From the NCBI GenBank assembly GCA_027604185.1, contig JADGKB010000006.1, positions 62,001 through 126,000 of the forward strand: a stretch of DNA of 64,000 nt, in the 5' to 3' direction. Source of the DNA: Boothiomyces macroporosus. Its lineage: Eukaryota; Chytridiomycota; Chytridiomycetes; Rhizophydiales; Terramycetaceae. Numbering within the stretch: position 1 is the first letter of the stretch; each line of letters begins with the position of its first letter. Positions 1-64,000 of the stretch are shown piece after piece. The notes beneath the pieces were generated by a model. It did not search any database, was not told the origin of the DNA, and worked only from the letters and a program-made list of their open reading frames with translations. The translations under genes were made by a program, and so were the position numbers.

Positions 1-853
1 TGATATTTGGTGTCAGATAGTTTAGATTGTACTTGCGGCTCTTGCAAAATCTCTTGCAACGCGTGTTTATGTCCAGAAGAAGAATGAACGAGAATTATTT
101 TATCTCTATGATCCAAAATTACTTTTTGCTGTTCTTTAAGGGCTAAATCAATGATATACTTGTACAATGCCTCCTTTATAAACCCTTTGTTAGTATAAAT
201 CACCTGGGCTGGCGATAATCAATACTTTGACGATATCAAAATTGATATGATGAATGATTCCTTGATATACTTGATGAAAGAATCTAATGACTCCCTTGTC
301 ATGATCGGTAGTAGTTCCTCTTCTCTTTTTAGGAACATTTGTCTCTATTCGTTGCCTAACGATAGTCATATTCTCCGTAACAAGACAAATTTGAGCCAAG
401 CCTTCCTGTAGTACCACTGCACCGATATCTGCCTTGTTTTGGACATTGCAACAGTCATTGATCCTATCAAGATGAATAATATCCCACTCTTCTTTTTCAA
501 TGGTAAACGGACGATGTAATTCCAAATCTGAATTAGTTTAATTTACCAAGAGTGTGATACTGTCCCATTTTGACATATTTGTTTTCCTCGATATTCTTCC
601 CATTCACTCTCAGTACGGAAGCCTGTACGTCGAAAAACACAGTCTCTACTTTAATAGTGAGAGTGGTCTTTTGGGAAAGTTTTTCTGTTGACCCAGTGTT
701 GGTTTCGGATACCACTCTTCTAACAGTAGTGGCTTTTAGAATGTCATCCTTGAACAGCAAGTTGTATGTGTGCCACAGGTCCTCTGTATCTTCCGCTATC
801 AGCTTTACGAATCCAGAAGAATTCTTTTCCAATTTCTTTGAAACTAATTTCAT
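1..853 (-). CDS. PELO: Pelota/Dom34 ribosome-rescue factor (3' end cut by window edge)
   Basis: Pelota pairs with Hbs1 to split ribosomes stalled in no-go and non-stop decay in the cytosol. Exon 1 (853 down to 547) gives the SmF-like N-terminal domain beginning MKLVSKKLEKNSSGFVKLI and ending KMGQYHTL. Exon 2 carries the GAVVLQEGLAQICLV block of the eRF1-like central domain. Exon 3 gives ASPGFIKEALYKY and HSSSGHKHALQEIL, and reading runs off at SDTKY. Removing introns of 19 nt at 528-546 and 185-203 restores the family sequence exactly across both joints. The C-terminal eRF1 domain lies outside the window. The start codon lies 19 bp from the start codon of the opposite-strand gene. Identification is secure. 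Confidence 0.96.
185..203 (-). other. 19-nt spliceosomal intron in pelota
   Basis: On the minus strand this reads gtgatttatactaacaaag. Removal joins GCC AGC CCA G to GG TTT ATA AAG and restores the pelota motif A-S-P-G-F. The branch-like actaac sits 4 nt before the acceptor G. Confidence 0.93.
528..546 (-). other. 19-nt spliceosomal intron in pelota
   Basis: On the minus strand this reads gtaaattaaactaattcag. Removal joins CAC ACT CTT G to AT TTG GAA TTA and gives YHTLDLELHRPF, the family sequence. Without splicing the frame hits a stop at once. It is a clear example of the intron class found throughout the window. Confidence 0.95.
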
Positions 854-872
854 TCTCTGATCTTTTTCAAAA
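854..872. promoter_or_regulatory. 19-bp start-to-start interval of a divergent pair
   Basis: Only 19 bp (tctctgatctttttcaaaa) separate the pelota start codon (minus strand) from the next start codon (plus strand). It contains a TTTTTCAA element on the plus strand, like that seen before many other starts here. Core promoter sequence for one or both genes must overlap the neighbour's coding region. No experiment supports a promoter here; this is inferred from spacing. Confidence 0.5.
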
Positions 873-1310
873 ATGACTGAAATATTTTATGAAAAGATAG
901 AGGACGGACGAGCGAATAACCTCAAGATTAATCTTAAAGACGGGACATACAGACTGGTTGGCAGGCGGAAAGGGAATACTTTTGATGTGTTTGCAAGCGT
1001 GGAAGTGGATCCTGCAGAAATGGAAACAGAAAGGAATTACTTTGAAAAATACCAGCACAAGGGCACAGTATTACAAGATCCACAAGACAGAGAATTTATT
1101 TTTGCAAACAGTAATATAACTGACTCTATGGAAACCCTTGTTCAGGACAGACCAATTGCAGAAAAAGTTCAAGGCTTGCTTCGATCCAACCAAGGCTTTA
1201 CTTTAGAGTATCTGGAAAGCCAGCTGAACCAGAAGCTAGCTGGAACCTTGCAAGAACTTCAAGCGGATTTTATTATTTATGAAACGGACGGTAAATACTA
1301 CACGCTGTGA
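873..1310 (+). CDS. Small conserved-looking protein of unknown function, 145 aa
   Basis: This is a single-exon frame with a start 19 bp from pelota's start. The product begins MTEIFYEKIEDGRANNLKIN and is acidic to neutral, with no signal peptide or membrane segment. The last 45 residues (LLRSNQGFTLEYLESQLNQK, then a short beta-like FIIYETDGKYYTL) have the helix-helix-wing rhythm of a winged-helix fold. That is pattern recognition only and I do not recognise the family. The frame is intact, codon use resembles the neighbours and the gene is tightly packed, so it is probably real. Confidence 0.7.
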   Translation: MTEIFYEKIEDGRANNLKINLKDGTYRLVGRRKGNTFDVFASVEVDPAEMETERNYFEKYQHKGTVLQDPQDREFIFANSNITDSMETLVQDRPIAEKVQGLLRSNQGFTLEYLESQLNQKLAGTLQELQADFIIYETDGKYYTL

Positions 1311-1430
1311 ATATAGATTATTGAGATCTATTTACAATCTGATTCAACCGGTCAAGATATCTGCCTGTAATACCTGCTAGCTGAGCTAGATATCTCTAAT
1401 ATATTTACTTTTTTTTCTAATCAAAAACAA

Positions 1431-2387
1431 ATGGAAAAATCAAGCTCAAGGCTCCCAAACAAAGAATTGATTAATGCATTGGAACTGACTTCCAAGCCAG
1501 TTCAGGAATCGAAAAAGCCAGAGGAATTTACCAGGCATCACCAGAGCCACTTTACAAATACCAATGTAATAATGAATCAAGAAAATATAATTCATGATAT
1601 TCAACCTGTGTTCCTTCAACAGTCAGCTGCTCAAGATGGGCAAGGCGTGCTTGAGTTACTGCGGTCTGGTAATTTTACAAACGAGACTGAAGAATATACA
1701 ATGAGGAAAACGGAATTCCCAATGGATAATGAACTGGAAAATCCACAAGTAACTATACATTCAATAGTAAGAGATGGCCAAGACATAATCAATTACTTGA
1801 AGCTAAATCGATATGCTATTGATATGGAGAGGAAAGAAGACTTTGATTTGACTAGTCTGATCAATGAATTTGAGCAGGCGGAAAAGGCAGAGGATAAGCC
1901 AAGACTCAGGAGCGCTCTATCTAGACTGCAGATGCTTAAAAGGCATATTAGTAAAGAAAATTTTAAATAAAGATAATGGTGAAATTGGAAATGCAACCCT
2001 AATGTTTGCAAGTGAATCGAGTGTTTTCAAGTTTACGCGAAATGGCAACAGAAAGAATAACAGTGAGAGAAAAAATCATTACAAATGTAGGCTTTTGTCC
2101 CAAAGGTATTTTGGATTAATCTAGATGCGATTGGGTGGTTGTACGCAGCAAGAGGATTCTACAAGTTGAAGCAATATCATGCGGTAATTGAGTGCGTAGC
2201 GCCGGCACTGAGAAATGAAAGAACTAAAAGGGAAGGGCAGCATTTACTCGCCTTTTCTTTGTTAAATACCGGACAACCAGAAGCTGCTGCTGGAGCTTAT
2301 TTCAAGTCAATCAACTACGGAAATGACACTGATTGGCAGAGCTTGGTAGAACTGTTTATTGATAATCCGAAATTAAAATTGACCTGA
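1431..2387 (+). CDS. TPR-containing protein, two or three exons
   Basis: The first exon runs from MEKSSSRLPNKELINALEL to about 1950 and ends in a helical LQMLKRHI segment. The last exon (from 2124) contains AIGWLYAARGFYKLKQYHAV and ALRNERTKREGQHLLAFSLL, a tetratricopeptide-like helical pair. A 19-nt intron (2105-2123, gtattttggattaatctag) is clear. The junction near 1951-2012 is uncertain. A 62-nt intron keeps the frame, and so do two introns (1951-1972 and 1979-2012) flanking a 6-nt exon. Alternatively two separate genes abut. TPR proteins act as scaffolds; no specific partner is evident. Confidence 0.6.
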
Positions 2388-2436: not shown

Positions 2437-4846
2437 ATGAGTTCGGACGACGACTATTCCGTCAGCGACGTTGATTCAGAGGTTGAAGTTTCAGTCTCCA
2501 AGAGGGTTAAAGTAGGCGAATACAAACATGTAGAGCACACGCCTGTAAAGAAACAGCTAGGGTTGAAACGAAGTGTTCAAGGATATCTTCCTACCCCAAG
2601 TTCAACATTCAGAAAGCCACTAAAGCCAATATGTACAAACACAGATGCGGAAAGGTTTATGGCTGTTCCATTTAAAATCCCAAAGTTCTTGAAACCTCCT
2701 CCCTCAGCTCACGGAGGACTTCGACCTGGAACAACTTTGGGATTACGGAGAAATACTCAGGTCAATATTCATCCATTGTATGATCCGGATGCGGAAAATG
2801 CTATTGTGTTGTTTAGACCATTGGTACAATTAACCGAAGACGAAAAGCTTAGCAGGATTGCTAAAAACCCTGGGAAGCCAGTAGATTTCGAAGTGGAAGT
2901 TGTAATTGATCCAGTATTAGGAAATGTATTGAGACCGCATCAAATTGAAGGAGTAATTCATTGTTAATTTAGGTAAAATTCTTGTTTGATTGTACAACTG
3001 GAAGAAGATCGGAAGATGCATTCGGATGCATCATGGCAGATGAAATGGGTCTCGGAAAGACTCTAGTAAGGCCACTTTAACCTAGCAATGTATCACTTTA
3101 CTGTGGACTTTACTTCGGCAATCGGAAATTCCAGGGAAGCCTACTATTGAAAAAGCAATTATTGCTTGCCCATCAAGCTTGGTCAAGAACTGGGCAAACG
3201 AGTTGACCAAATGGCTAGGTGAGGGGCGAGTCAGGCCATATTCGTGCGACAACAAAGGCACAAAAGAACAAACTAGCAAAGACATTTCTCAGTTTGTTTC
3301 GGCCAAGGGTAGAGGGATTGTAAATCCTGTTTTGATCGTCTCTTATGAAACGTTGAGGATTTATTCAGAAATTCTTCAGAAAACAGAAATCGGGCTACTT
3401 TTATGCGATGAAGGTACTGTTTATTAACCCCAGGGCACCGATTAAAGAATGCAGATTCCCAGACCTATATTTCCTTGAATGCATTGAATGCAAAGCGAAG
3501 AGTAATTCTTTCTGGCACCCCAATCCAAAACGACTTGACCGAATACTTTAGTTTGCTTAGTTTTGCAATTCCAAACGTTCTTGGAACTGGGGCAGAGTTT
3601 AGAAAAAAGTATGAAATTCCAATTTTGAGAGGGAGGGATGCAGATGCAACTGAAAAAGACAGACTTCGTAGTGAAGAGTGCCTTCAAGAACTTCTGTCAA
3701 CTGCAAACAAATTCATCATCAGAAGAACTGCCGAATTGTTGACTAAATATCTTCCAACAAAGTATGAATACATTGTTTTCTGCAGAATGACTGAATTCCA
3801 AAAGAAACTGTACAGGCACTATTCTCAACAGGAAATGCAAAGATTGATAAAGTCGGAAAACAGCGAAAAGAAAGGTGGACAGTCAACTTTAAAAGCAATG
3901 ACAACAATGAAGAAAATAGTTAACCATCCTGCCCTGTTAACCGCCAAGGATGTCCCTGATAGTTGGATTCCAGCTGGCTTCAATTTTAACGACTGTCTTC
4001 CTGAGTTTTCGGGTAAATTCTGGTTGTTGGAACAGATGCTTGTACAAATGAAGCGTGAATCAAACGACAAGATTGGTAAGTTGCTTTAACCATAGTTTTG
4101 ATTAGTAATTACACTCAAACTTTGGATTATATTGACAAAATGTGTAGAGTAAGAAGATGGCCTTTCTGCAGGTTGGATGGTACAATGACAATTCCTAAAC
4201 GACAAAAAATTGTCGATAGATTTAATGACCCAACTCAACCAGAATTTATTTTCTTGCTTTCATCAAAAGCTGGTGGCTGTGGTATTAACTTGATTGGTGC
4301 TAACAGATTGATATTGTTTGACCCAGATTGGAATCCTGCAAATGATGCCCAAGTACTCTATATTTAATATTAGGCTCTTGCTAGAGTGTGGAGAGACGGG
4401 CAAAAGAAAACCTGCTTCATCTACAGGTTTATTGCTACTGGAACAATTGAAGAAAAAATATTTCAACGTACCTTTCTCTAAAACTAGGTCAAGCCCACAA
4501 ACAATCTCTTTCGTCTTGCGTTGTTGATGAAGAGCAGGATGTAGAAAGGCATTTCTCATTAGAAAGTCTCAAGCAGCTGTTCAAATATAATGAAGACACA
4601 CTTTGTGACACTCATGATACTTTCCGATGCAAACGGTGCCAAAATGGAAAGCAGTTGATTAAACCCCCAGAAAACGCGATAAACACTGGGGCTACAGCAG
4701 CGGATACCAGCACTTGGAATCACTATAGTGAAATAGAAATTCACAAGGTCTTTGATACTATTTTGAATACTCAAGCGCGAGAAACCAAGTTGGTATCTTT
4801 TGCTTTCCAAAACAAAAGTCACGACGGTCAAGTAAAGAAACCATAG
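2437..4846 (+). CDS. RAD54: RAD54 DNA translocase (Snf2 family)
   Basis: RAD54 remodels chromatin and stimulates Rad51 strand exchange in homologous recombination. I see [11 protein letters not shown] at the domain entry, Walker A with motif I ([12 protein letters not shown]), motif Ia ([14 protein letters not shown]), a DEGHR box, the [10 protein letters not shown] motif III block, [14 protein letters not shown], and motifs V/VI ([20 protein letters not shown], then ARVWRDGQK). The C-terminal Cys cluster is kept. Seven introns of 20-21 nt (for example 2953-2972, 3066-3085, 3414-3433, 4076-4095, 4353-4373, 4468-4487) each interrupt a conserved motif, and splicing each restores it. Length is about 755 aa, normal for the family. 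With MSH4 at the other end it suggests a recombination-competent organism. Confidence 0.97.
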
Positions 4847-4959: not shown

Positions 4960-7095
4960 ATGCTCGAAAGAAACGTTACAGTAAAATCGTCAAACCAAGA
5001 TTTGAGCAAAGCAGCCACGGAAACCGTTACCGACACCGCCAAGTAATTTCCTATTTAAAATAGAATATTTGACAAAAGTTGGGAGCAAGTACAAAAGAAG
5101 AGTAATTTGTAAAATAACGCCAGCATTCACCAACTGGATAAACATTCACTTGAAGGAGTGCGATGCTCCTCCAATTGTTGATTTGGCTACCGATCTATCA
5201 AACGGAGAAAATTTGATTTTGTTGTTGCGTAACTAAAAGTAATTATAGAGGTTATTGGCGATGAATCGCTTGGCAAATTCAACAGACACCCAAGAATCAG
5301 ATTACAAAAAATCGAAAACGTAAACAAGGCGTTAGAATTCATCAAGAAGAGAGGAGTAAATCTCACCAATATCGGTGCTGAAGTACTTGAGCATAACCAT
5401 AGGATATTGTTGATTCAAATGAAAAATTGATTTTGGGGCTAATCTGGACCATTATTTTAAGATTCTCTATTGCCGAGATTAGCGAAGAGGGTCTTACTGC
5501 CAAGGAGGGTCTTTTACTTTGGTGTCAAAGAAGGACCACTCCATATGAAGCTGACTTTAAGATTATCAACTTTACTTCCAGCTGGATGGATGGTCTAGCA
5601 CTATGCGCGTTAATTCACCGTCATAGACCTGACTTGTTAAATTACTGGGCCTTGGATAAAGTTATCTTTGCTAATCCTAGAAACAAAAGCACGCAAATAC
5701 CCAACTTGCTTTCGATATTGCTGAAAAGCACTTGGGCATTCCAAAGTTGTTTGCAGTCGAAGATGTTGTTGATGTCATCAGAGTATAATTCAGACTTACT
5801 TTAGCCTGATGAAAGATCCGTAATGACTTATGTCGCGCAATATTTCCACGCATTCTCTGCTCTAGACAAATTTGGAGTTGCTGGCAGAAGAGTTGGCGCT
5901 CTCGGACAAGTACATCCTTCTTTACAGTAGCTTCTTCAAAATGTTTGGGACATGCAAAACGATTATGAAAAGAGAGCAACCGCATTAATTGATGCATTGG
6001 CTCAGATCCAGTCCACATGGGTCAACCCACAATTCAAAGGCTACTTGGATGCCAAGAACCAATTACTGGAATTTGAAAACTACAAAGGAACCAGCAAGAG
6101 AGGCTGGGTTACTGAAAGAAGGGACTTGGATTCTTTGCTTGGAAATATCCAAACTAAATTAAAGACCTATAATTTAAGACCTTACGCTCCTCCACCACAT
6201 TTGACCAAGGATCAACTAGACAACCACTGGAAAACTCTTGTCCAATCTGAAGCGGCTAGAAAAAGAACCTTGACCAACTATATCAGAGAGTAAGTCACAT
6301 TTTACCGTAGTGCTAAAGATGCTTTGAGACAAAAGTTTGCAAAAGCAGCCAACGACTTCCAAGAAGCTTTGAACAATATTTCCTTGCAGCTAGCATCTCT
6401 AGATGGTGAACTTGAAACTCAACTTCAAGTTACACAAAAATTGCAAAGCCAAATCAATCCGTTCGCTGAACAACTATCTTCATTGGCATCCTTGGACGCT
6501 CAATTGATTGAAGCAAACATTGAAGACAATGAGTAAGTATTTCTAAATTAGATACACTATTTATTCAGTTGAGGATTTATCATTCGAGTACGAATTAGTG
6601 GCTCAAAGTTTGGTAAAGAAATCAGCATTTATTGAAAATCAAATTATTGCTAGATCAAAGACCAACTTTACTCCACAACAATTGGAACAATATTCTGAAA
6701 CTTTCCGTATATTTGACAAGGATAATTCCAACGGTCTCATTCGTGAAGAATTCAAAGCTGCTTTGCAAGCAGAAGGTACTGTTCTTGATCAAAATGATTT
6801 TGAAAATACTTTCCTAAAGATTTCCCAAGGCTCTAATGAAATCAACTTTGAACAAGTACGTTTCAATTAACTATAGTTTATTGAATATGCAAGAAGTTTG
6901 GAAGAAGACAAATTGACTCAAGATCATTTGTCTGTTGCCTTCAAGACTTTGGCTGGAGACAAGGACTTTGTTACTGAAGCTGATTTCTACCGTGGAGGAT
7001 TAACTCCGCAAGTAGTAGAGTATTTGAAGACTCAATTGCCAAAGAAGGATGAGGGATACGACTATGCGTCCTATATTAGCTACGTCTTTATTTGA
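4960..7095 (+). CDS. Alpha-actinin, short (fungal/protist) type
   Basis: Alpha-actinin is an actin cross-linking protein. The order is two calponin-homology domains (first block TFTNWI through NVNKALEF; second from [15 protein letters not shown] with [11 protein letters not shown]), then spectrin-like helices ([20 protein letters not shown] onward) and a C-terminal EF-hand pair with a good loop ([14 protein letters not shown]) and a degenerate second one. The rod is shorter than the four-repeat animal rod, as in fungal and amoebal forms. At least ten introns of 19-22 nt are needed; each restores CH- or EF-domain sequence (e.g. gtacttgagcataaccatag near 5382, gttatctttgctaatcctag near 5661). 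Two CRE-like sites precede the start. Confidence 0.95.
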
Positions 7096-7129: not shown

Positions 7130-7787
7130 TTATTGACTTGGTTTCCCTGGAGCTGCGGCATTATATTTCTAGAATTAGATATACAAACTTTTTTGTTCAA
7201 GTTCCATGGAACGTATTTGTACTTTATCATATGTTGGATTTGTCTTCGCATAGTGAGAATGAATAATAAGATGAAATACATTAAAAGGATGGGCCAGAAT
7301 ACTGGCAAATCAAAGGCATCAAACATTGTACATGTAAAAGCAATCAGAAACGCTCTGGTAGAATAATACCTAGGATAAGCATGACATACCAGAACTTGAA
7401 TTCCGGCAATCTTCTAATAAACGGGCGGAACTCATCATCTACTTTGGTAGGCAACATTGGTCCGTCATCTTCAGCATCATTCAATTCCTGTTCAAGTGCA
7501 GGATCAAACTTTGGAGTCAGAAATGCTAAAAAAACATTGAGCAAGTATATCCCAAGAGCATACTGAATTTAAAAACATAAATACTGTAACAATATACCAA
7601 CCATTTGCTGTGACTGCTCTGATAATATACAACACCCCAAGAATTCCAGTTCCAATCCATCTTTGGGTGGTGAATGGAGTAAGATCGTCGAGCAGCTTTT
7701 GATATCTCTAGCAATTTAATATTCAAGTACTCGATTCAATTGTGTAGCAACTCCCGTGGTAGGAGATGGTGAAGTAGGATTTTGCAT
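7130..7787 (-). CDS. RER1: RER1, ER membrane-protein retrieval receptor
   Basis: RER1 is a Golgi four-helix membrane receptor that returns escaped ER membrane proteins. Recognisable blocks are [25 protein letters not shown], the signature [21 protein letters not shown] segment, and [18 protein letters not shown] followed by [17 protein letters not shown]. Splicing introns of 20-23 nt, including gtatgtcatgcttatcctag and gtttgtatatctaattctag, joins five exons and gives a C-terminus [13 protein letters not shown]. Length is about 186 aa, normal. The start codon is at 7785-7787. Confidence 0.95.
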
Positions 7788-8063: not shown

Positions 8064-8687
8064 ATGAAATTACCACCAGTGAATATGAGACTGCAGATAG
8101 TGAATCCTTTTTAACTTTAGAGAACAAAGTTCAAGAAACCAGATATTCATGTGTACCTACAAGAAAATGTTGAAGGATTGGGGAATGCGGGTGATATTGT
8201 ATTGGCTAAATTGGGCTACGCAAGAAACTATCTGGTTCCATTCAAAAAGGCATATTACGTTCCTAGACATCGGGGCAAGCCAATATTGCCGGACAACTGG
8301 GTCGCACCAGTGAAAGAAACCGGGGATATTTTGGAAAAAATCACTCCCGCAATTATTACTGTACCTTACAATATCAATTCTATTCAAACTGTCACTCCAA
8401 TTGAACAGATTGAGCACATAATGTCAGATATGGAATTGAAAGACGCATTACTCAAAGTCCAGGATTTGGAATTCCAAAGAGTGCGAATCAAGAAAGATTC
8501 GGATAAAATATTCGGTTCAGTTACTCCTGCCGATATTGCTAATGCTCTATTAAACCAGAATATCAGTATTGACAAGGAAAAGATTCAAGGGCGATTCAAG
8601 GAAATTGGATCTCATTCCGCTACAATAACACTGTCCGAAGATATAGACCCAATCGCCATCAGCATAATTATCAGAGATATTGAATAA
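8064..8687 (+). CDS. MRPL9: Mitochondrial ribosomal protein bL9m
   Basis: This is a large-subunit mitoribosomal protein. A first exon of 12 codons (MKLPPVNMRLQI) is joined through a 21-nt intron (8100-8120) to RTKFKKPDIHVYLQENVEGL. The L9 signature GLGNAGDIVLAKLGYARNYL follows, and the C-terminal L9 domain has KIFGSVTPADIANAL. Length is about 200 aa. The upstream DNA is strongly T/A-tracted (tttttcaattttttcaaaaa). The stop codon overlaps a shared polyadenylation palindrome with frataxin. Confidence 0.93.
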
Positions 8688-8699
8688 AACATTTTATTC
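8682..8699. terminator. Palindromic two-way polyadenylation site between converging genes
   Basis: GAATAAAA-CA-TTTTATTC is an inverted repeat with 8-nt arms. Each arm supplies the last codon, the TAA stop and an AATAAA signal for one of the two converging genes (L9 on plus, frataxin on minus). Stop codons are 6 bp apart. The role as a 3'-end signal is inferred from AATAAA position. Confidence 0.6.
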
Positions 8700-53500: not shown

Positions 53501-56500
53501 ACCTAGCCAAGCTACTCTATTATCCATCTTCAAATCATTGGACACTCCGCTGCTATTGAAAACACTCCACCCACTCTTGCAATCGGAGCTATCTGCTATT
53601 CAGCAATCTCCAGAAAAAGTAAACTACAATCGATCACTGATTCAAAACTTGGTTCAACTTTACTATAGTTTGTCAACTGCTTCTCTATTTGGCAAAAAGT
53701 CTGGTATTTATCTTAACCAGTACTGCCAATTATTTGCTAAATATGATACTGATCATCAAATTGAAGTCTGTCTTTTGGCTATTGAAGGAATATCATCAGA
53801 GTGGTTTGATGGCTTGAATATTGTCCATCGTCAATTAATATTTTCGGTTTTGGTTGACACACTGGCACTCGGACCTGCCCAGCTTTCTCTGCCTATTAAA
53901 AAGTGCTTAAAGGAAATCACTCTTTCCGCTTCTGTAATGGAGCCAAAGTTATCGCAGATTGCATCTTCGCTGGAGGATTCAGAAAGCGTAAAGAAAACCA
54001 AAGCTGAAGGTGACAGACAACAAGAAAAAATTTACATTCTTATTGCTTTCTTGGAAATATTGCAGCTTTTATCTATTGATAACGACAGTATACAACTAGT
54101 CTCTGGTATTGTTAGTCTTTTGGGTGGTCTCTTGAACTTTTCGACTGAAACTTTCACGAATATTGAATACGCCAAACAGTTGATCCTGTCAGCATTAAGC
54201 TCAATCATGAAGGAATGCCCTGAAGCTTCCGAATTAACTGAAGAGACACTTCGTACTGATTTGATTGTACAGTGTATTCGATTTACAGACAATCCTCAAA
54301 CTCATAATGCAGCTCTCTTGTTGCTGGCTGCAATTGGGAAAATCTTGCCTGATATTGTTCTTGTCAACATCATGCCTGTCTTTACTTTTATGGGTGCGAA
54401 TATCCTTCGCCAAGACGATAACTATAGTTTCCACGTTGTGCAGCAAACTCTTGAAACTATTCTGCCTTCACTGTTGAATTCTGGGGAGGAAGATTCTTTG
54501 ACTTATGTCAAGGCCATTTTGGATATCTTTGTCAATGCGCTTACACATGTTCCAAGTCACCGAAGATTGCGGTTATTCACTATTCTCATCAAAACCCTTG
54601 GAGCTAACGAATACTTGGGCTCTTTGGTTGTGTTGCTTCTTTCAAGTCAAATTATCGCTGCTGATAAGCAAATAATATCACCTGGAGAATCTGTAAACGT
54701 CAAGAAGTTCTCAATGGAATTGTTGCATCAATTTGATCTCGAAACTCAGTTCACTACATTAAACTCGATGGTTGAAATCTTTGGATCAACTCCGAATGAG
54801 AATAGCTCCCAAGAGTTACCAGCAGTTTTGGATTGTAGCGTACTACAAACTAAAACTATCAGACAAATCAAGATCCAACTTTTGAAATTCGTAAACCATG
54901 CGTTGAACTACACAGCTGAAAGAATTGGAGCAACTGATGGTTCAGAAGCTGATTCAGAAGTTCACTTGAATTTGATCAAGAACATTTTGCAGGAAATCGC
55001 TGCCACTCACAAACTAGACATTTCCGACAATAGTCCTTCCACAGCAAAGTACGTGTCTACAATTAAAGACTTGCTGTATGAAAACTTGAATGTCGCCAAT
55101 TCATTATTGTCACTCCCAGTATTTTTGGATGTCACAACCAAATTGCTTTCTGTAAAGGATGCAAATATCAAAAAGAGGGCAATGAACATGCTTCAAGAAC
55201 GAATTAAAGTTATCGGATCGGAGGAGATTGTACCTGAAGAGTTTGATGTTGTTACTGACAAATTATGCGGTCTATTTACCGAGGAAGACGAGGCAGGTGG
55301 TATGGAAAACAAACAACACGCATTAATCACTTTTGCTGTATTGGTTACAGTCATTGGTCAGAAATCACTCGAAAAGTACACTGAAATTCTCAAATTGATT
55401 ATTGGAAAGCATGGCTTGCTTAGTTCGCAAATCGAAGTTTATTCGTCGTCCATGATTGCACTGGCTTCTTTCATCAGGGTGTTGGGAACTAGAACCATTC
55501 CGTATCTTCCAAAGTTTGTTCCAACATTCTTGAAGTATACTGAAACAGCTCTAAAGAATGTTGAAGATGTGGACAACATTGTTTCTTCCCATGTTGTAAT
55601 TAAGAGTGGGCTTGCCTGTTTTGACGCCTTTATTGAAACTATTCCCCAATTCACCAGTTCATACTTGGTTCAGTTTATCGCTATTCTAACTAGCAATTCA
55701 TTGGTAACTATAAACAGTGAACCAATTCAAAAATCAGTTGCTGGACTGCTGACCAAAATTCCTACATTGATAGACCATCGTATCCTATTCCCAGTTGTCA
55801 ACAAGCAAATTCAAAGCATGATTCAATCAAGCTCTTCGTCGTTCATCCAAGGACTGAATTTGTTGATTGAAATTATCTCTTGCACAAAACAAGCCAACTT
55901 GCTTGAATTTGCAAAAGACTGGTTCAAGCTGTTTATTACTGTTTTTGATTTCAAAAAACAAGTATCCTATTCCGAAACTGTAAGTTTTCATTGATTATAG
56001 GAAACTATTGCTGTAGAACAAGTGTTGAAGACAGTCTTTATCAGATTCACCATGAAAATGAACGAAAAGACCTTCAAGCCGCTCTTCTTGAAAGTCGTTG
56101 ACTGGGGGTTGACAAAAGAAGCAGGTAATTGTCTATTTATTTAGAAAACAAACTATTCCTGTTCAGATTGGTAGATTCACTGCTCGAAAACTTGAAAACT
56201 ATTTTTGTTCCATATTATGGTTACATCATGGATGCAGCAATTGCGATTCTTGAAGAAATCCTGGATACAAAAGATGTTGGAGCACTCTGGGAACCAGTTC
56301 TAGTTTCTCTAACCAAATGTTTCACTTTTGATACAAACGGTAGATTAATGTTAATCGATAGGATTTGTAAACCAGAGCCGATTTGACAAGATTCTCAAGC
56401 CACTGGTCGATCAAATTGATTTAATTGGGGCTCATGGCCAAGAATACAAGGAAAAGATGATTGAGTTTGTGATTCCATGTATTGGACAGCTTGCCAAGGC

Positions 56501-56777
56501 ATACCATCAAGAAGACGCTTGGAAACAACTCAACAAAGCAGCGTTGATGAAGACTAGATCTCCAGAAGCAAGCGTCCGTTGGGTCGGTCTTAGTGTGATC
56601 TCTGAACTGTACTTGAGACTGGGTGAAGAAATGCTGGTATTCTTCCCTGAAACTATTCCATTCTTGGCTGAATTGATGGAAGACGAAGATCCAGAAGTAG
56701 AACAACTTTGCCAAGATGTATGTCTACAAATTCAGCAATATTTGGGAGAGCCTATCCAGCAATACTTTACTGCTTAA
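50574..56777 (+). CDS. UTP10: HEATR1/UTP10, t-UTP component of the SSU processome
   Basis: This is a nucleolar HEAT-repeat protein for pre-18S rRNA transcription and processing. The N-terminal block SFLERQLQQIASSKAPLPTK with SLLFDPKAAADVDRETIFEL is diagnostic. Splicing 19-22-nt introns yields LFLQLLSPYYLQKDSFNALE, WLVRRFKINEMNVDAVLKCI with LPYHETPQFVKF, and GKPMWQFLMPVQKSNVPLGR. One giant exon (51620-55979, 4,360 nt) holds most HEAT repeats. The C-terminal BP28CT-like region has RFTMKMNEKTFKPLFLKVVD and ends EVEQLCQDVCLQIQQYLGEP-IQQYFTA. Total is about 1,960 aa, close to yeast and animal forms. Confidence 0.96.
55980..56000 (+). other. 21-nt intron flanked by a 6-bp direct repeat
   Basis: The intron gtaagttttcattgattat-ag in HEATR1 has GAAACT immediately on both sides. 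This looks like a target-site or repair-type duplication. Splicing keeps the frame, and both copies are coding (E-T|E-T). Confidence 0.6.
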
Positions 56778-57259: not shown

Positions 57260-58926
57260 ATGTCAAGTCGACAGACAGAAGTGATGCCCAACTTTGAGCA
57301 GACGCTTTTGAAAAAGAGAGGGTTAGCGAATGTCTAATGTAGATCTGCTCTCACAGATGGATTATCGTTTATTGCTTACGGAGCTCAGGCAATTGCAAAT
57401 GACGAATTTTCAAAATGCTTTGCACCTAAACCAAGAAACAAGGTCATTTCATACCTGCTGAAGGGTTTGAAGGCTCCCTTGTCGATTGCCGGAATGGGGA
57501 TTCGTTATTTTTTATTGCTGCCGATACGGTAAATACAACTTAATGTAGAATATTCATCCTCTTTGGAGCAAGCGCTGGATTTTTCATTGCGCTTCCAATC
57601 GTATTGCGCTTAAAGAGTGAGAGACTCAAGGTATTCTTTCTTTAATCCCAGCGCCTGTTATTTAAATTATACTGCAAAGCTTTCTTGTGGTCTTGGGGAA
57701 GCAAAATTCGATACCATGGTAAAAAACCAGTTTTGGACGAACCACATATTTTTGTTTCCAACCATACTTCGATTATTGACTACATTGTGCTGTCATCGCA
57801 TGGATTCCCTCACGCAACTGTTGCTCAAAGACAAGGAGGCATTATCGGATACTTCCAAAAGAATATTCTAAAGCTGAATGGCTCGCTGAATTTCGATAGA
57901 TCCCAAAAGAACGATAGGTCTGTGATTGCTCAGAAAATGCGAGAACACGTTTTCAATACCGAAAAGAGCCCTCTCCTTATATTCCCTGAAGGAACTTGTG
58001 TAAACAATGAATATACCGTTCTTTTCCACAAAGGAGCCTTTGAGCTTGGAGCAAAAGTAGCACCAGTCGCCATAAAGTATGACAAGTCGTGGGCCGATGC
58101 TTATTGGCACTCTAGAACTCAAACCTTTTCGTCCCAGTAATCTATCATCTAATTTAGTCTATTCTATCTCATGACAAGATGGAGATTGGTCGCCGATGTA
58201 TGGTTCTTGGAGCCGCGAGCAAAACGTGAAAACCAGTCCGCTATTGATTTTGCAAATGAAGTAAAGGCAGAAATATCCACTGTTGCTGGATTAAAGAACT
58301 TATCTTGGGACGGGTACTGGAAGAATTATGTTCCTCCTCAAGAAAAGCAAGAAAAGCTAAAAGAAATCTCCCGCAAGAGATACAGCAAGATATTACTCAA
58401 TAGGCTGAACAAGCCTTCTCAAGTCATCCAAAGGCGACATAGTATGTCAGACTGCCTTACTAGTCCTGGTGTCGATTTCGAAGAGCCAGATTGGATGACA
58501 AATTCTAATGAAAACACAAATATTAGAAACAAAGTGTTGGTAGCTCTTCAAGAGCAAGAACGCCAACATACCTTAATCTCAATTATTACTGACCAACGCC
58601 ATAACATTATTGATACTTGGAAGGAAGTAGCAAAGAGAAGGATTGGGGAAGATAAGATTGGAAGTAGAAGAATCGAAAACTTGTCATGGAGGCTCTGGTT
58701 CAAAGACAAGATCCTAAACAAGCCTACGGAATCAAACATCCCAAAAAACACATCGCTCTCTGATCTCTTTGAACTAGTCACTTCATTCCTTCCACTCCCT
58801 CTCCGTCTATATTCACCAGACGATGTATATTCAAAAGATCTATCTTCAATGGAAACACTAACCAATGATGGTTCTCCAAGAACTCCACGAAGAATCAAAT
58901 TTGACTTTGATTCTGATTCTGATTAA
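57260..58926 (+). CDS. GPAT3/4-like glycerol-3-phosphate acyltransferase with fungal-type C-terminal extension
   Basis: It acylates glycerol-3-phosphate or lysophosphatidate at the ER. Hydrophobic N-terminal helices include GMGIRYFLLLPIRIFILFGA. The acyltransferase motifs are SNHTSIIDYIVLSS (HX4D), FDRSQKNDR, IFPEGTCVNNEY and VAPVAIKYDKSWADAYWHSR, all as in GPAT3/GPAT4. A 21-nt intron before LFYLMTRWRLVADVWFLEP fits the family. After about residue 330 it adds some 170 residues with DTWKEVAKRRIG and RRIENLSWRLWF, like the areA GATA-like (PF08550) motif of fungal regulators, and an acidic end. Introns of 20-21 nt at the 5' side. Confidence 0.92.
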
Positions 58927-58972
58927 AGCATTTTCGTGAATAAACTGCATTTTTCAAATCCAGTCATTTATT

Positions 58973-59533
58973 CTACATTGTTCCCATGGACCATATATCC
59001 ATATCGTCCAGTCTTCTGACCATTTCTGCGGTCAGTATCGTTGGCGGAGTTGGACAATACTGCGAAATGTACTTTGCAGAGTCCCCAACAGTAAATCAAA
59101 CTGTTAAAAGCAAGTTACCTGTTGATAATCGATTGCTGAGAAGGGTCCAGAAACAGTACCACTTTTCTAGGCTGCTTTGTTTGAATCAAATTTATGATTA
59201 AGTCATTCTGATCGTGCTTGGATCCTCCCACTTCATACATCACTTGAAATCCTGTCATTCTAGTATCCTGCTGGGCAACATGTGTGAATGCTTTCAGCTT
59301 CAATTGCAAATCTTCCGCTGCTTTCTTTTTCAATCCGGCTATTTAAGCAATCAATTACCAAATGCTTCCATATTCCTTCCAGTTGGAATTATTGCACGGG
59401 AGCAAGATGTAATAATGAGGGTATCGCCTTTTTGAATGCATGATTGAATGGTCCATTTGATGGCTGCACCTACAAGATCGCATTCGTCAACTGCAAGCAG
59501 GACTATCTTGTTTTTGCTGCTGAACGAAAACAT
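58973..59533 (-). CDS. Universal stress protein-like (USP) protein; 3' end unresolved
   Basis: The start MFSFSSKNKIVLLAVDECDL fits the first strand and helix of the USP alpha/beta fold. DTLIITSCSRAIIPTGRNME follows, then after a 20-nt intron AGLKKKAAEDLQLKLKAFTH and NDLIINLIQTKQPRKVVLFL. The nucleotide-binding G-x2-G-x9-G-S/T end is not evident. The last exon is ambiguous. After an 18-nt intron candidate the frame may end at TAA or at TAG, both next to an AATAAA (58967-58975). MSH4 ends 36 bp upstream on the same strand. Confidence 0.65.
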
Positions 59534-59569: not shown

Positions 59570-62140
59570 TCAAAGATCACACATCACATTTATTTTTCGG
59601 AATAATCGTTCTGGAGTTGGATCAGACTCTGCCTCAAACTCGACTCGGATAAGTTGGAATGATTCAGTATTTGAATCAACTGATGGACCAACTTGGTTAG
59701 TAAATGGTACTTGTTGCTTTGTAGCGAGTGCCTTCAATCTCAGATACTCTGGATTATTTTCATGCAGCTCTTTCCATGTAGAATTTAACTGTTGAGAAAT
59801 ATCAAATGCAAGCGCACACGTTTTGTGTTCAAACCCTGCTTTTTTAGCCAAGTCAATTCCATAGTGTTCACCCAAGCACTCTCCTCCTTTAATTTTATAC
59901 CCATCCACAGTATTTGGGTCTTGGAAATGTAAAATTAATGTGTTTGGAGAGATGGAGAGAAATTTGTGGACTTTGTCAAAGTGTGAAGCAAAGAATACGA
60001 ATGCCTGGTTAACAATACTTACTTTCTTTTTAAGCAAGCACTCGCAAACTGCTATCGATATTGCTGTTCCATCGCTAGTTGAAGTGCCGCGGCCCAGTTC
60101 ATCTTCATTAGAAACAATCACCAATAATTACCAGAGACTGGTCAGTAAAATTGTCTAGAATAAAGGAAGTTTCATGCATTTCATTGGTGAACGATGAAAT
60201 TTGAGCATGGTAGCTGTCATCATGACCAATTCTTGCCAACAACTTGTCAGTCATTCGTATTGTTGCAAATTCACAAGGAACGTAGGAGCCGATTTGGGCC
60301 ATGATCACTATTAGCGCAATTTGATTCAAATAAGTTGATTTTCCAGACATGTTTGATCCACCAATTATTTGTAATCTGGACTGCGAGTCGGCAAACGCAT
60401 CATTTGGATTAAACATCAACTCTTTTTCCATTACTGGGTGCCTGGAATTCTTGAATGCTAGCGTATCTGTGAATTCTGGTATTGTGTATCCATCCTGGTT
60501 GGCTATTTTGCTCAAGGATACAAGTACATCAAGAAGAGCTGGTTAGTCAATCCTACCTATTGCTTCCGCCAATCGATAAAATACAGGTAGATATTCATGT
60601 AAAAAAATTACCAATTTTGTAATTTCCCTATATCAATATCAATTACTCTTCACTCATCAAATAGATTTCTCTAAGGGATTCTTTAATTCTCATATTCAAA
60701 TGAACCATTTGCATGCTAGTAAAAGCAACTTTTGAGTTTCTCTTTTGTGGGTTGATGAAAACAGCGGGCAGTGAATCTTTTAATTGATTATCTGCAATCG
60801 ACATAAAATACCCATCTTCTTGGTTAAATTTCAACTCGATTTTCAATTCAAATGTATCAAAATAGTACTGAATCAACTCATGTATATCATCTGTTCCTTC
60901 CTTGTAAGTTTGCCTCGCAACATCAAGCATTTGGTTTAGTTGAGATTTGACTGCAAAACAGCGCTGATTTCGCAAGCCAATAGGAGTTTTTTCAAACTTT
61001 GCCTTTGATTAAGATAGTTTACTTCCGAATCAATTATTTCATCTATTCGAGATAGTATAAATGCAATACTTGGATCGTATATAATCTATTTCAGATCAAT
61101 TTACTTTGTGAATCTTGACTAGTAAAGTAGACTGGACCCTACTCATAGATTCAGCCAGTATTTGCGTCTTTTGAAGTGCGAATTTGATTGCCAATACTCT
61201 GTTGATGGATTGTTCAGAGAATTTGGTAGTGATTTTCTTTGGAATTTGAATCATTGCAGTAATCGTTTTGTTTAAATCTGGGATTTCACTCAAATCCCTA
61301 GATAAATCATAAAGTAGTGATTCTGATTGGAAGATCTCTTTGATTGCTTCTTGCCTGTCTTTAATGGTTTCCAGATCTGATCAGATGAAGGATACCTCGT
61401 AAAGGCTGAATTATATTAGATTTCAACAGCCTAGCTCCCATACCTGTCTTTGTCTTGTTCAGCAATCCTAATAGACACCCTTTTTTCTTTTCAAATCGAT
61501 TGGCAACCAATTCCTACTTTAGGTATCATATACCAGCAGCGTTGCAGTAGTCGAGTCAATAAACATTGTGCCATCGATTGATTCGTAATTGAACTTTACA
61601 GAGTGATTTTTAAACAGTAAATTTTGGGTGTTTTCGATATACTTGAACAAGGCAGAAATTGCTGACAATGCAAAGTACTTTTCATTCTAAATTAGTATCA
61701 CTTACAATTGAGAAATTGATTTCTTTGATTGAATATTGCTTCAGTGTTTCCAATCCGTTTTCCTGATTGAACCAGTTTCTTTCTGCTGGGTAGATATTTG
61801 GCTCTACCTGATTAGTTATTGCTTGGTATAGCAAGGTAGGAGGATCAATGCAAGACTTTGAAAACACTACTTTTGCTGGATTCAAGATTGACAGTTTATG
61901 GATTGTATGAACAAACGAAGCAGTATCAGCATACTGTGTAATTTGACAAATAGAGGTTTTGAGATCGATAGAAACCAAACCAATTTCAGAATATGCTCCT
62001 CTTGCTTCCGATATTACAACAATGATGTTTGAATTGCTGGTCTGTGATATCGCGGTTGAAGGTCTGGTCCCATATTGCGATAATGATTTTGAAGTTGATG
62101 GACGGATTTGTGAAGTAATTAATGGCTCAGTTTCACTCAT
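59570..62140 (-). CDS. MSH4: MSH4, meiosis-specific MutS homologue
   Basis: MSH4 stabilises Holliday-junction intermediates for crossovers with MSH5. A low-complexity start precedes NIIVVISEARGAYSEIGLVS with ICQITQYADTASFVHTIHKL, typical of MSH4 and lacking the MutS mismatch-recognition domain I. The ATPase has Walker A IIGGSNMSGKSTYLNQIALI with MAQIGSYVPCEF, and after a 19-nt intron Walker B and signature LVII-DELGRGTSTSDGTAI. It continues VFFASHFDKVHKFL. C-terminal YGIDLAKKAGF fits. Many 19-24-nt introns lie between 60600 and 61680. It implies a meiotic programme. Confidence 0.93.
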
Positions 62141-62200
62141 AAAGTTTGTTTATTTCATTGGAATTTATACTTTTAAAGTAAGCTTTTTTCATGCAAAAAG

Positions 62201-63571
62201 CTAATACTGTGGTTTAAAGTCAGCGCCATTGTTTTGAACTGGCGGATACGGAGAAGAGTAATCTGATGGTGGTCCATTAGGTGGCTGATAAACACCAGGA
62301 GGTGGTTGGTAATTTCCAGGAGGTGGGATTGTTGGTGGTTGGTAATTTTCTGGAGGAGGTCCACTAGGAGGTTGGTAATTTCCTGGTGGTGGGATTGTTG
62401 GTGGTTGATAGACAATACTGGAATCAGGTTGTCCAGAGTACCCATTGGAAGGTGCATAATCAGCTGATCGATATCCGTTTTGCAAAGGTGGAGGAATATT
62501 AGGAGGTTGATACTGTTGTGGTGAGCATTCATTCAACTTTTGTGTAGAGCTATAATCGCCTGGAATCATTGCTCCAGGTTTGGTTATTCGAACTACTTTT
62601 TCAACGCATTCCGAATCATCACACTCGTCATTCCTGTGCTTCCACTTTGCTATCCCTAATGGGACGATTCCAATTACAATACAGACCAGCATTACAATCA
62701 AAAAGTCATTTTTAGTTCCTTCATCGACTCTGGCTGCAATTCTTAATGGGAGGAATAATCCAAATGGCAAAAGCACCCCAAACCAGATAAAGATATTGGC
62801 AGCATGAGGATAGTGTGAAAAGTACCGGTCGCAGATAAATATTTTTGTTCCATAAATCAAGACTATCAGCATAATCAAAGCCACGAATCCGAACCCTACC
62901 CAGCTGCCAACAGTATATGAAATACTAAACGCAACGGTTGAAACACGGTTTGGGTCGTAATAGCAAGGCTCTGAGCCTCCAACCACTTTTGAGCTTACCA
63001 GTGCTTGAGCAGAAGCAAGGTCAGTGTTGAAATCTTTAGAATATACAGAAATCTGCGTACCATTTGACACTGGATATGATACTTGAATGTTTGCGGTGTA
63101 GCAGAGAGGGCAAGTGACTGTACACTGCAAGTTGTCCACGTAGTCACAGCAATAACAGTTGCAATCATAAGAACGGCAACTTTGAGTACAAACGTTGTTC
63201 GAACAAGAGGTTGTGCATGAAGTACATGTGCTGCAACACTGACTGCAGCATTTATATCCGGTCCCACATGTTTTACCTAGTGTAGGGCATGAACCTGTAC
63301 CATTGCCCGAACACGAAGAAGGGGAGATTGAGTTGTAATTACTGATTACAGTTCCGCAATCTTGAGTTCCAAGTGCTGATTCTGTACAGCTTGAACATGT
63401 AGAGTAACAACAATATCGCGAAACCAGTGTAGAGTTGAGATTTTGGCAGGTTGTACCTGTATATCCGGCTCTTTGAATTTCTGGATAATCGACTGCAAAG
63501 AAAACAGGAAAGAATAATGCGCTTGCGAGTACAAAAGCTACGATGAACCCAATTGTTTTGCAGTTTACCAT
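62201..63571 (-). CDS. Cys-rich, multi-pass membrane protein with Pro/Tyr-rich cytosolic tail, 456 aa
   Basis: It is a single exon. It begins with a signal-anchor (KTIGFIVAFVLASALFFPVF). The following 130 residues contain about 30 Cys in pairs (RYCCYSTCSSCTES; GYKCCSQCCSTCTSCTTSCS; CNCYCCDYVDNLQC). TMs follow at GFGFVALIMLIVLIYGTKIF, IFIWFGVLLPFGLFLPL and FLIVMLVCIVIGIVPLGIA. The last 120 residues are [N/V]-Y-Q-P-P-x-[IG]-P-P-P repeats that resemble WW- or SH3-binding ligands. It is not a known channel or receptor to me. Sequon N-x-T/S residues mark the Cys-rich part as extracellular. Confidence 0.8.
   Translation of the reverse strand: MVNCKTIGFIVAFVLASALFFPVFFAVDYPEIQRAGYTGTTCQNLNSTLVSRYCCYSTCSSCTESALGTQDCGTVISNYNSISPSSCSGNGTGSCPTLGKTCGTGYKCCSQCCSTCTSCTTSCSNNVCTQSCRSYDCNCYCCDYVDNLQCTVTCPLCYTANIQVSYPVSNGTQISVYSKDFNTDLASAQALVSSKVVGGSEPCYYDPNRVSTVAFSISYTVGSWVGFGFVALIMLIVLIYGTKIFICDRYFSHYPHAANIFIWFGVLLPFGLFLPLRIAARVDEGTKNDFLIVMLVCIVIGIVPLGIAKWKHRNDECDDSECVEKVVRITKPGAMIPGDYSSTQKLNECSPQQYQPPNIPPPLQNGYRSADYAPSNGYSGQPDSSIVYQPPTIPPPGNYQPPSGPPPENYQPPTIPPPGNYQPPPGVYQPPNGPPSDYSSPYPPVQNNGADFKPQY
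62265..62415 (-). repeat. Coding tandem repeat, Y-Q-P-P-x-I/G-P-P-P units
   Basis: Five or more imperfect copies of a 10-13-aa unit (NYQPPTIPPPG, NYQPPSGPPPE, NYQPPTIPPPG, NYQPPPGV, YQPPNGPPSD). At DNA level ggtggttggtaatttcc-type words recur at about 33-nt spacing, so the repeat length in this gene may vary between strains. Confidence 0.8.
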
Positions 63572-63697
63572 GTCGCGTTTTGGGTAGAGTTTTATTCTTT
63601 AAAATCATTTACATCCCACATTTGGATAAATTCAGCAGTGTTATTTTAGACTGGTGCCCACCATCAACTGTTTAGTTGACGTAACAAGTTTGAAAAA

Positions 63698-64000
63698 ATG
63701 ATATTGAATGTCATATCAACAGTAGCTGTCGTTTTTGCAATTATTTTGATTCTGACTTTATTCTATTACGAATATAATGGATTATTTCAAAGGTCTTATA
63801 GTCGGTTAATTATGGGAGGTCTCTTCCTCAACCAAATAGGCTTAATCCATCGACTGGTTGCAATACAATTGCCACCACTGGATATTACTCTGTTAATGGA
63901 TGGCATCAATAACGATTTCATAATTCTGGAAGCGCACCTGACTGGACTTTTCCTTGTATTGATTAACATCCAAACTCTGACGATTTTCAAGCCTTTGGAT
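63698..64000 (+). CDS. Membrane protein, 5' part only (runs off window)
   Basis: The frame is open from ATG to the window edge (over 100 codons). It begins MILNVISTVAVVFAIILILT then LFYYEYNGLFQRSYSRLIMG, and later LEAHLTGLFLVLINIQTLTI, giving at least two hydrophobic segments. A TGACGTAA half-CRE lies at 63677-63684, 13 bp before the start. Family unknown. Confidence 0.65.
   Translation, partial: MILNVISTVAVVFAIILILTLFYYEYNGLFQRSYSRLIMGGLFLNQIGLIHRLVAIQLPPLDITLLMDGINNDFIILEAHLTGLFLVLINIQTLTIFKPLD

Follow-up and report, generated by a model that had tools for sequence, protein, structure and literature searches.

Ultra-short introns have been described in several eukaryotes. Lengths of 15-16 base pairs (bp) are reported for heterotrich ciliates, 16-17 bp for mikrocytids and 18-21 bp for a nucleomorph (PMC10245619), the last range being given for chlorarachniophyte nucleomorphs in a second source as well (PMC5014332). 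In Stentor coeruleus, introns measure 15-16 nucleotides (nt), with the branch A at position 10 of 15 and a weak branch consensus; according to the sections of that report drawn on here, neither Slu7 nor Prp18 was found, the glycine plug is missing from Cwc25 and Isy1 has no conserved N-terminus. Its authors tie the changes in the branching factors to room for a tiny lariat (PMC9505925). Mikrocytids are reduced parasites with 224 introns and a reduced spliceosome (PMC10245619). In Paramecium and other ciliates, introns of about 25 bp occur and intron definition was suggested (PMC5014332), and the shortest intron of Trichomonas has 23 nt (PMC12316389). Among fungi, a mean intron length of 63 bp is given for Cryptococcus neoformans in a study on long and short introns of 644 genomes (PMC8476143). 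Here we analyzed a 64-kilobase (kb) stretch of chytrid DNA, referred to as the window, which represents positions 62001-126000 of contig C6 in an assembly of 15,203,306 bases and 216 contigs. Its genes are interrupted by introns of about 20 nt. Nearly all introns of this genome of 15.2 megabases (Mb) appear to be of this size; judged from the sequence, they would be near the smallest known anywhere and far below the usual fungal size.

The host is assigned by protein similarity to the chytrid fungi, either to Boothiomyces or to an adjacent lineage. The spliced RAD54 protein (762 amino acids) differs from the GenBank protein of Boothiomyces sp. JEL0838 in 4 residues (99% identity), and the next-nearest homologs in a homolog search belong to Polyrhizophydium, Batrachochytrium, Globomyces and further chytrids, which is why we regard the host as a fungus. 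The top homolog of the alpha-actinin is that of Terramyces sp. JEL0728 (92%). Boothiomyces is classified in the Terramycetaceae (Rhizophydiales, Chytridiomycota, Fungi).

Intron lengths

For the detection of introns, we applied a self-written two-strand semi-Markov gene finder, whose coding model was trained on long open reading frames, to 264 kb of sequence, consisting of the window and 100 kb each of the contigs C1 and C2. An extra sample comprised 5 kb from each of 8 other contigs. Numbers below refer to the 264 kb unless another sample is named. One run used a flat intron-length prior of 9-200 nt and no splice-site matrix, and was performed for GT-AG and for seven decoy dinucleotide pairs. 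With GT-AG, 213 of 459 introns were 19-22 nt long (51, 97, 38 and 27 for the four lengths). Some introns will come out of any flat-prior run, which speaks for the rival view that the short class is a gene-finder artefact or consists of chance GT..AG pairs in open frames; each decoy pair indeed gave 390-448 introns. However, merely 13-25 of these had 19-22 nt, and only GT-AG among the eight pairs produced the length peak. The window alone gave the same picture (62 of 136 GT-AG introns at 19-22 nt versus 1-7 for the decoy pairs). Further support for the rival comes from a crude excision count, which peaked at 19-21 nt but was noisy: under the stricter of its settings, a decoy pair drew level with GT-AG at 22 nt (27 each) and came to 30 versus 35 at 19 nt. 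In most of the matrix-free introns, a branch motif also stands at a constant position. YTRAY whose A precedes the last base by 5 or 6 nt was present in 134 of the 213 GT-AG introns of 19-22 nt, compared to 14 of 134 decoys of this length; among the longer GT-AG calls it was present in 32 of 222. This count, made without a splice matrix, proves the branch independently.

When the splice matrices were self-trained and the prior was flat over 9-400 nt, 346 of 497 introns were 19-22 nt long (90, 165, 53 and 38), with a mode of 20 nt. The fully trained model, in which 90% of the weight of the length prior lies on 17-26 nt, predicted 528 introns: 5 of 18 nt, 117 of 19 nt, 211 of 20 nt, 95 of 21 nt, 66 of 22 nt, 13 of 23 nt, 2 of 24 nt, 1 of 25 nt and 18 longer ones. 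Because this prior favors 17-26 nt, the unbiased tests (flat prior, homology, genome-wide pattern) weigh more. In the window, the trained model placed 159 introns in 31 of 35 gene models, with 3 of 18 nt, 36 of 19 nt, 58 of 20 nt, 28 of 21 nt, 22 of 22 nt, 8 of 23 nt and 1 of 25 nt; three long calls (79, 92 and 96 nt) are distrusted, yet kept in the counts. The initial annotation, made from the letters of the window, had stated that nearly all introns there are 19-23 nt long and mostly 20 nt, and this is borne out by 152 of 159 introns with a mode of 20 nt as well as by the GT-AG-specific peak under the flat prior. Its few longer introns of 26, 27 and 62 nt were not reproduced, the longest homology-checked intron of the window being one of 25 nt in the urease gene. 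In the 8 other contigs, 26 of 44 introns had 19-22 nt with the flat length prior, and 41 of 43 had 18-23 nt with the trained model.

Intron density in the trained model is about 3.4 per gene model (528 in 157) or 2.4 per kb of coding sequence. Scaling 528 per 264 kb to 15.2 Mb, we estimate about 30,000 introns for the whole assembly. The three intron phases are represented by 219, 186 and 123 introns. An in-frame stop occurs inside 85 of the 107 introns whose length is a multiple of three (3n), a figure inflated by detection bias.

Genome-wide distribution

The whole assembly was additionally searched for a splice pattern independently of the gene finder. AGGTA-N7-YTAAY-N-YAG, corresponding to an intron of 19 nt, occurs 613 times compared to 15 times for the reversed control. 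Allowing any spacer length within 1-30 nt gave 1,119 matches versus 330 for a poorly matched control. The first 100 of the 1,119, all on C1-C4, comprised 57 of 19 nt, 31 of 20 nt, 5 of 21 nt, 2 of 22 nt and 5 of 30-40 nt, so that 95 of 100 were 19-22 nt long. Since the branch A is fixed at 5 nt from the end in this pattern, the class with a distance of 6 nt goes uncounted. All 12 fixed-pattern matches within the 264 kb coincide with predicted introns. The search without a finder thus gives the same lengths as the finder. The tiny-intron pattern is present in the window, in C1 and C2, in the 8 further contigs and across the genome, with one narrow genome-wide length mode below about 25 nt. Together with the fungal host indicated by RAD54, this agrees with the earlier proposal of a general rule in an opisthokont nucleus.

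Exon junctions in conserved proteins

Four genes of the window were compared with homologous proteins at each predicted junction. All 31 introns of RAD54, alpha-actinin, urease and VMA3 have 19-25 nt (2, 13, 8, 5, 2, 0 and 1 for the successive lengths), and the spliced proteins keep the family alignment at all 31 junctions, in line with the original statement that splicing restores conserved family sequence and that the introns are real. RAD54, named by homology as in the initial annotation, lies at 2437..4846 on the plus strand (introns 2953-2972, 3066-3085, 3414-3433, 4076-4095, 4353-4373 and 4468-4487 with 20, 20, 20, 20, 21 and 20 nt). Its six junctions all fall inside conserved blocks; among 12 aligned relatives Globomyces alone is gapped, at junctions 5-6. 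The alpha-actinin gene (4960..7095, plus strand; homology and Pfam) has ten introns of 19-22 nt (5043-5063, 5102-5123, 5229-5248, 5383-5402, 5661-5680, 5783-5804, 5910-5930, 6290-6310, 6533-6551 and 6856-6876). All ten junctions align with 11 relatives, and no column is gapped against at least 9 of the 11. The exceptions are Terramyces, Globomyces and two N-terminally short proteins, which are gapped beside single junctions, and one insert at junction 9. The urease gene (18151..20845, minus strand; homology and Pfam) contains ten introns of 19-25 nt (18617-18636, 18779-18798, 18935-18956, 19085-19104, 19202-19221, 19297-19319, 19850-19870, 20042-20066, 20401-20421 and 20682-20700). Compared to the urease 4g7e_A, all ten junctions are free of indels within 2 residues, and one indel, of a single residue, is found at a distance of 3 residues from a junction. 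VMA3, coding for V-ATPase subunit c (49894..50493, plus strand; homology and Pfam), has introns at 49923-49944, 49992-50013, 50118-50138, 50194-50216 and 50367-50386 (22, 22, 21, 23 and 20 nt), and its five junctions are located in a gap-free alignment to subunit c 6m0r_E. The decoys and these homology checks refute the artefact view, to which we assign a negligible probability.

A further question is whether the short introns are peculiar to one strain or assembly instead of being a trait of the clade, as the DNA of a single genome was read. This is unlikely. The splicing predicted here is compatible with the GenBank proteins of Boothiomyces sp. JEL0838; proteins of this genus already agree with the removal of these introns, and such gene models are thus public. 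Moreover, annotated proteins of two other chytrids lose residues beside the same junctions. The Terramyces actinin lacks 9 residues right before junction 4, the Globomyces actinin lacks residues right before junction 5, and the Globomyces RAD54 has little left of the exon bounded by junctions 5 and 6. From these annotated proteins we infer that Terramyces and Globomyces also carry tiny introns, which annotation length limits would have stretched.

Splice signals

Splice signals were determined for the introns of the trained model. The donor resembles AG/GTAATT, with GTAATT as the top hexamer (62 of 510) and G at +5 in just 17% of 509 introns. The best matrix match gives YTAAY as the branch consensus; TTAAT is the commonest word (106 of 510), and TTAAC accounts for 69 of 510. 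Measured to the last base of the intron, the distance of the branch A is 5 or 6 nt in 393 of 510 cases; measured from the first base, it is 13 or 14 nt in 369 of 510. A good branch is missing from 9 of 510. The acceptors are TAG (307), CAG (131), AAG (63) and GAG (9). In the 19-nt introns of the self-trained set (n = 90), T is found at position 12 in 97% and A at position 14 in 98%. A composite of GTA, branch and YAG at fixed spacing is present in 224 of 489 introns of 19-22 nt, compared to 2 places in sense and 4 in antisense direction in 205,430 nt of exon; part of this contrast is built in, as the donor and the last 8 nt already enter the predictions of the trained finder.

With a GTA donor and a YTAAY branch 5-6 nt before the end, the introns look U2-type. 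Their ends are GT-AG, and the branch is able to pair with GUAGUA of U2. Removal by a minor (U12-type) or hybrid spliceosome is a conceivable alternative, because TTAAC is among the common branch words and resembles the U12 branch core. We consider it very improbable, since the consensus is YTAAY with TTAAT as the most frequent word, the donors are GTAATT-like and the pairing parts of U1, U2 and U6 are canonical. That U12 was not found is a weak argument, the controls being silent too.

In the model which we propose for these U2-type introns, recognition would proceed by intron definition with a built-in ruler. GTA-rich donors would pair with U1 and then with U6, and U2 would pair with the YTAAY branch, the A of which mostly follows the donor at a distance of 13-14 nt. 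For the 3' splice site, the AG located 5-6 nt beyond this A would be used. The fixed length could provide information that is missing from the degenerate donor.

Spliceosomal RNAs and proteins

Small nuclear RNA searches covered U1, U2, U5, U6 and U12. The 5' end of U1 is canonical (AUACUUACCUG), and an alteration of this end to match the GTAATT donors is therefore rejected. U2 is represented by two genes, the aligned copy of which has GUAGUA, and U6 has ACAGAGA.

Five protein factors were sought and all five were found. The genome has genes for SF1, Slu7, Prp18 and Cwc25, the spliced products of which are recognized by Pfam. Slu7 aligns with SLU7 of the solved spliceosome 5xjc, which we take to be the human one. 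The idea that Slu7 and Prp18 became dispensable and were lost owing to the branch-to-AG distance of 5-6 nt is rejected, both being encoded. Cwc25 keeps the glycine plug (MGGG) in the sequence MGGGDLNLKKSWHP, as in solved CWC25 chains; its start methionine is our choice, as the raw model carries additional upstream residues. The Cwc25 N-terminal domain was found with equal score on two contigs (G000:C49:3542-3652 and G000:C100:5137-5247), and U2 likewise has two loci. These pairs are possibly uncollapsed alleles or duplicates.

The 20-nt inserts might also be something other than spliceosomal introns, namely sequencing or assembly insertions, DNA-eliminated segments or segments of ribosomal bypass. 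The present data are DNA only, and short inserts occur in non-spliceosomal systems as well. Nevertheless, GT..YTAAY..YAG at fixed spacing is the signature of U2-type introns, the genome encodes U1, U2, U6, SF1, Slu7, Prp18, Cwc25 and Isy1, and the RAD54 of JEL0838, available as a GenBank protein, is free of inserts at all six junctions. Such an origin is hence highly improbable.

Isy1, the fifth factor, matches at a single genomic place (L037:1225-2104). Its protein starts with MAPKTLAQKQE.. and not with MARNxEK..RFR, both in the gene model here and in the GenBank protein of Boothiomyces. A six-frame scan of the unspliced locus gave no MARNxEK-like motif at the gene start, whereby an intron-split motif would escape such a scan. 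RNGEK and MARN occurred once each, one out of frame in the gene and one on the other strand, and were taken as chance. The N-terminal exon is uncertain in detail, as the model here contains a 17-nt intron and GenBank reads the stretch otherwise. MARNxEK..RFR is retained in the solved ISY1 chains 6ff7_w and 8ro0_D, presumably the human and the worm protein, respectively, and in P0243 (Hompol1, read as Homolaphlyctis). The N-terminus of Globomyces Isy1 is half-changed and thus intermediate. Among the matches listed, 118 homologs have an M at their start; 75 of these show a MARNxEK-like motif there, and the other 43 mostly look like models starting at a later methionine. This makes the Boothiomyces Isy1 an outlier, though not the sole protein without the motif. 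A common change of Isy1 in two unrelated tiny-intron lineages, Boothiomyces and Stentor, is suggestive, although it concerns one protein. Loss of this N-terminus would help a normal spliceosome to handle a donor-to-branch distance of 13-14 nt, and intron length could then have collapsed genome-wide without the loss of Slu7 or Prp18; we put this forward as a tentative and rather doubtful idea.

Evaluation of the spliceosomal interpretation

Taken as a whole, the introns are almost certainly ordinary spliceosomal introns of U2-type that have shrunk nearly to the physical minimum across a chytrid nuclear genome. Several points weigh against this conclusion. From DNA alone we infer splicing itself, the order of recognition and the use of length as a signal. 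The length prior of the trained model favors short introns, and its branch counts are not independent proof, because the acceptor matrix (last 8 nt) overlaps the branch site. The control of the free-spacer search fits badly, as 330 control matches would predict far more stray lengths than the 5 of 100 observed. Longer introns of 40-373 nt make up 18 of the 528 in the trained model; most are suspected artefacts, but a 46-nt intron in Isy1 agrees with the GenBank protein and shows that there is also a minor class of longer introns. Purging of cryptic intron motifs from exons is weak at most, with raw counts of 2-3 compared to about 7.6 expected from synonymous shuffles. With 68.8 bits, U1 scores slightly below the Rfam cut-off of 69.5. 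U5 was not found, and as the controls for U5 and U12 were silent too, the absence of these RNAs is not demonstrated.

Other genes of the window

The remaining gene models are described with the intron coordinates of the trained model and with names by Pfam where stated. Pfam supports the names given in the initial annotation for pelota, RER1, L9, VMA3, MSH4 (MutS), arrestin, urease, actinin, frataxin, formin, DLIC, nicastrin and RasGEF. For FAAH and STRAD the support is at family level only, as an amidase and a protein kinase.

At the left end of the window, a pelota-like gene (95..853, minus strand), of which the model contains eRF1_1 and eRF1_2 only, has introns at 104-122, 185-203 and 528-546 (19 nt each). 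RER1 (7130..7787, minus strand; Pfam Rer1 at residues 15-181, 6.4e-78) has introns at 7169-7188, 7370-7389, 7563-7584 and 7708-7730 (20, 20, 22 and 23 nt), and the ribosomal protein L9 homolog (8064..8687, plus strand; Pfam) has one at 8100-8120 (21 nt). In the Terramyces annotation, actinin and L9 (window 4960-8687, with RER1 between them on the opposite strand) form one protein of 818 amino acids, which carries the L9 domains as well. Frataxin corresponds to residues 189-296 of the model at 8694..9678 (minus strand; Pfam Frataxin_Cyay, 1.3e-35), with introns at 8922-8941, 9152-9170, 9251-9271 and 9530-9548 (20, 19, 21 and 19 nt); the N-terminal part of this model may be another gene. The arrestin-domain gene (13103..14562, minus strand; Pfam Arrestin_N and Arrestin_C) has introns of 20-22 nt at 13561-13582, 13855-13874, 13939-13960, 14138-14157 and 14333-14352. 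Antisense over the urease gene, a match to the Rfam family 5_ureB_sRNA was found at 19538-19827. It is probably a by-product of the urease coding similarity and no RNA gene.

The formin gene (21905..25305, plus strand; Pfam FH2, 8.2e-28, and PTEN_C2, 1.2e-13) contains introns of 19-23 nt at 21920-21941, 22375-22395, 23344-23366, 24093-24111 and 24170-24191. This chytrid formin combines FH2 with an N-terminal PTEN-type C2 domain. It is followed by the dynein light intermediate chain gene (DLIC; 25347..26476, plus strand; Pfam DLIC, 6.9e-20) with introns at 25534-25553, 26162-26180 and 26343-26362 (20, 19 and 20 nt). The amidase named FAAH before (28623..30378, plus strand; Pfam Amidase, 1.4e-91) has introns at 29715-29736, 29850-29872 and 29982-30003 (22, 23 and 22 nt), the kinase named STRAD before (30401..31947, minus strand; Pfam Pkinase, 1.8e-41) has ten introns of 19-21 nt from 30496 to 31761, and a Memo-like gene (32617..33519, minus strand; Pfam Memo, 1.5e-76) has two at 33059-33078 and 33191-33209 (20 and 19 nt). 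Nicastrin and RasGEF are two genes which the finder fused into one model (41089..46162, plus strand) through a suspect 92-nt intron at 43051-43142; Pfam Nicastrin, Ncstrn_small, RasGEF and RasGEF_N match on the two halves. The other introns of this model have 19-22 nt (41672-41691, 42768-42787, 42931-42950, 43449-43467, 44222-44240, 44381-44399, 44665-44685, 44767-44787, 45489-45510 and 45694-45712). HEATR1 (50574..56777, plus strand), a name given by the initial annotation alone, is a gene model with introns of 19-22 nt at 50811-50829, 50949-50968, 51065-51085, 51207-51226, 51598-51619, 55980-56000, 56125-56144 and 56340-56361. The MSH4 or MutS homolog (59570..62140, minus strand; Pfam MutS_II, III, IV and V) has introns of 18-20 nt at 60103-60121, 60539-60556, 60628-60646, 61003-61022, 61086-61104, 61377-61395, 61514-61533 and 61687-61705.

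The unnamed genes are known from the gene model only. On the plus strand, the model at 1431..2387 has introns at 1951-1972 (22 nt) and 2106-2124 (19 nt) and the distrusted 79-nt call at 2012-2090, the model at 27542..28559 has one intron at 28481-28502 (22 nt), and the model at 31976..32597 has two at 32037-32056 and 32497-32516 (20 nt each). Nine introns of 19-21 nt from 37446 to 38909 lie in the model at 37236..39055, and one at 39607-39629 (23 nt) in a weak model at 39600..40750. A model which is coiled-coil-like by eye (46183..48023) contains seven introns of 19-21 nt from 46309 to 47776, and the model at 57284..58926 contains four at 57322-57342, 57529-57548, 57631-57651 and 58137-58157 (21, 20, 21 and 21 nt). 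On the minus strand, nine introns of 19-23 nt from 10064 to 12540 and the distrusted 96-nt call at 12722-12817 are located in the model at 9899..13065, and nine of 19-21 nt from 14920 to 17829 in that at 14686..18126. The model at 20965..21743 has introns at 21294-21313, 21504-21523 and 21688-21706 (20, 20 and 19 nt). A gene which is transporter-like by eye (33898..35791) has introns at 34748-34767, 35101-35122 and 35406-35424 (20, 22 and 19 nt), and the model at 48035..49599 has them at 48701-48720, 48805-48824, 49209-49229, 49359-49378 and 49546-49565 (20, 20, 21, 20 and 20 nt). Introns of 18 nt occur in the models at 58968..59533 (59101-59118, besides 59339-59358 with 20 nt) and, weakly predicted, at 62201..63303 (63277-63294, besides 63125-63147 with 23 nt).

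Comparison with known systems and implications

The comparison with chlorarachniophyte nucleomorphs and ciliates drawn in the initial annotation is apt, and mikrocytids with their introns of 16-17 nt are to be added (PMC10245619). As in Stentor, nearly all introns are tiny and uniform, the U1 and U2 pairing motifs are conserved, the branch A lies 5 nt before the last base and the Isy1 N-terminus has diverged. In contrast to what is described for Stentor, the introns here have 19-22 nt, the branch A is mostly at position 14-15, YTAAY is strong, Slu7 and Prp18 are present, the MGGG plug is kept and the organism is a fungus. Chlorarachniophyte nucleomorphs share a nearly equal length range and a compact, intron-rich genome, but represent the relic nucleus of an endosymbiont, whereas the estimated 30,000 introns here belong to a fungal main nucleus. 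A narrow length class and a conserved motif are shared with mikrocytids, from which the chytrid differs by about 3.4 introns per gene model and by the retention of both step-two factors sought. In common with Paramecium and other ciliates, intron definition is suggested and in-frame stops are found in 3n introns, although the figure here is subject to detection bias; the introns here are shorter and fungal and have a strong branch site. Many short introns per gene also occur in other fungi (Cryptococcus neoformans), but their introns are about 3x longer and no fixed ruler is described for them in the sections of the 644-genome study used here, which also contain no such tiny-intron case (PMC8476143). 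The consulted sections of three chytrid genome papers (PMC6572847, PMC5364385, PMC13391722) and of a Batrachochytrium paper (PMC3569864) likewise make no mention of tiny introns. In the open-access literature we found neither a fungal genome with such introns as a rule nor a paper on intron lengths in Rhizophydiales, consistent with the initial annotation, which knew of no description in an opisthokont; as coverage was open-access only, an earlier description elsewhere is possible. The ultra-short U2-type intron class is known. What appears to be new is this class as the rule in a fungus, the presence of Slu7 and Prp18 and the strict branch ruler.

Annotation pipelines with a minimum intron length would harm gene models in this clade, and the truncated Terramyces and Globomyces proteins suggest that such harm is already present. 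As far as the sources cited here go, introns this small as a rule are otherwise limited to heterotrich ciliates, mikrocytids and chlorarachniophyte nucleomorphs. The chytrid case uncouples small introns from both extreme genome reduction and the loss of Slu7 and Prp18, and draws attention to Isy1. Since this fungus has factors homologous to those of solved spliceosome structures, the lower limit of intron size would be directly testable.

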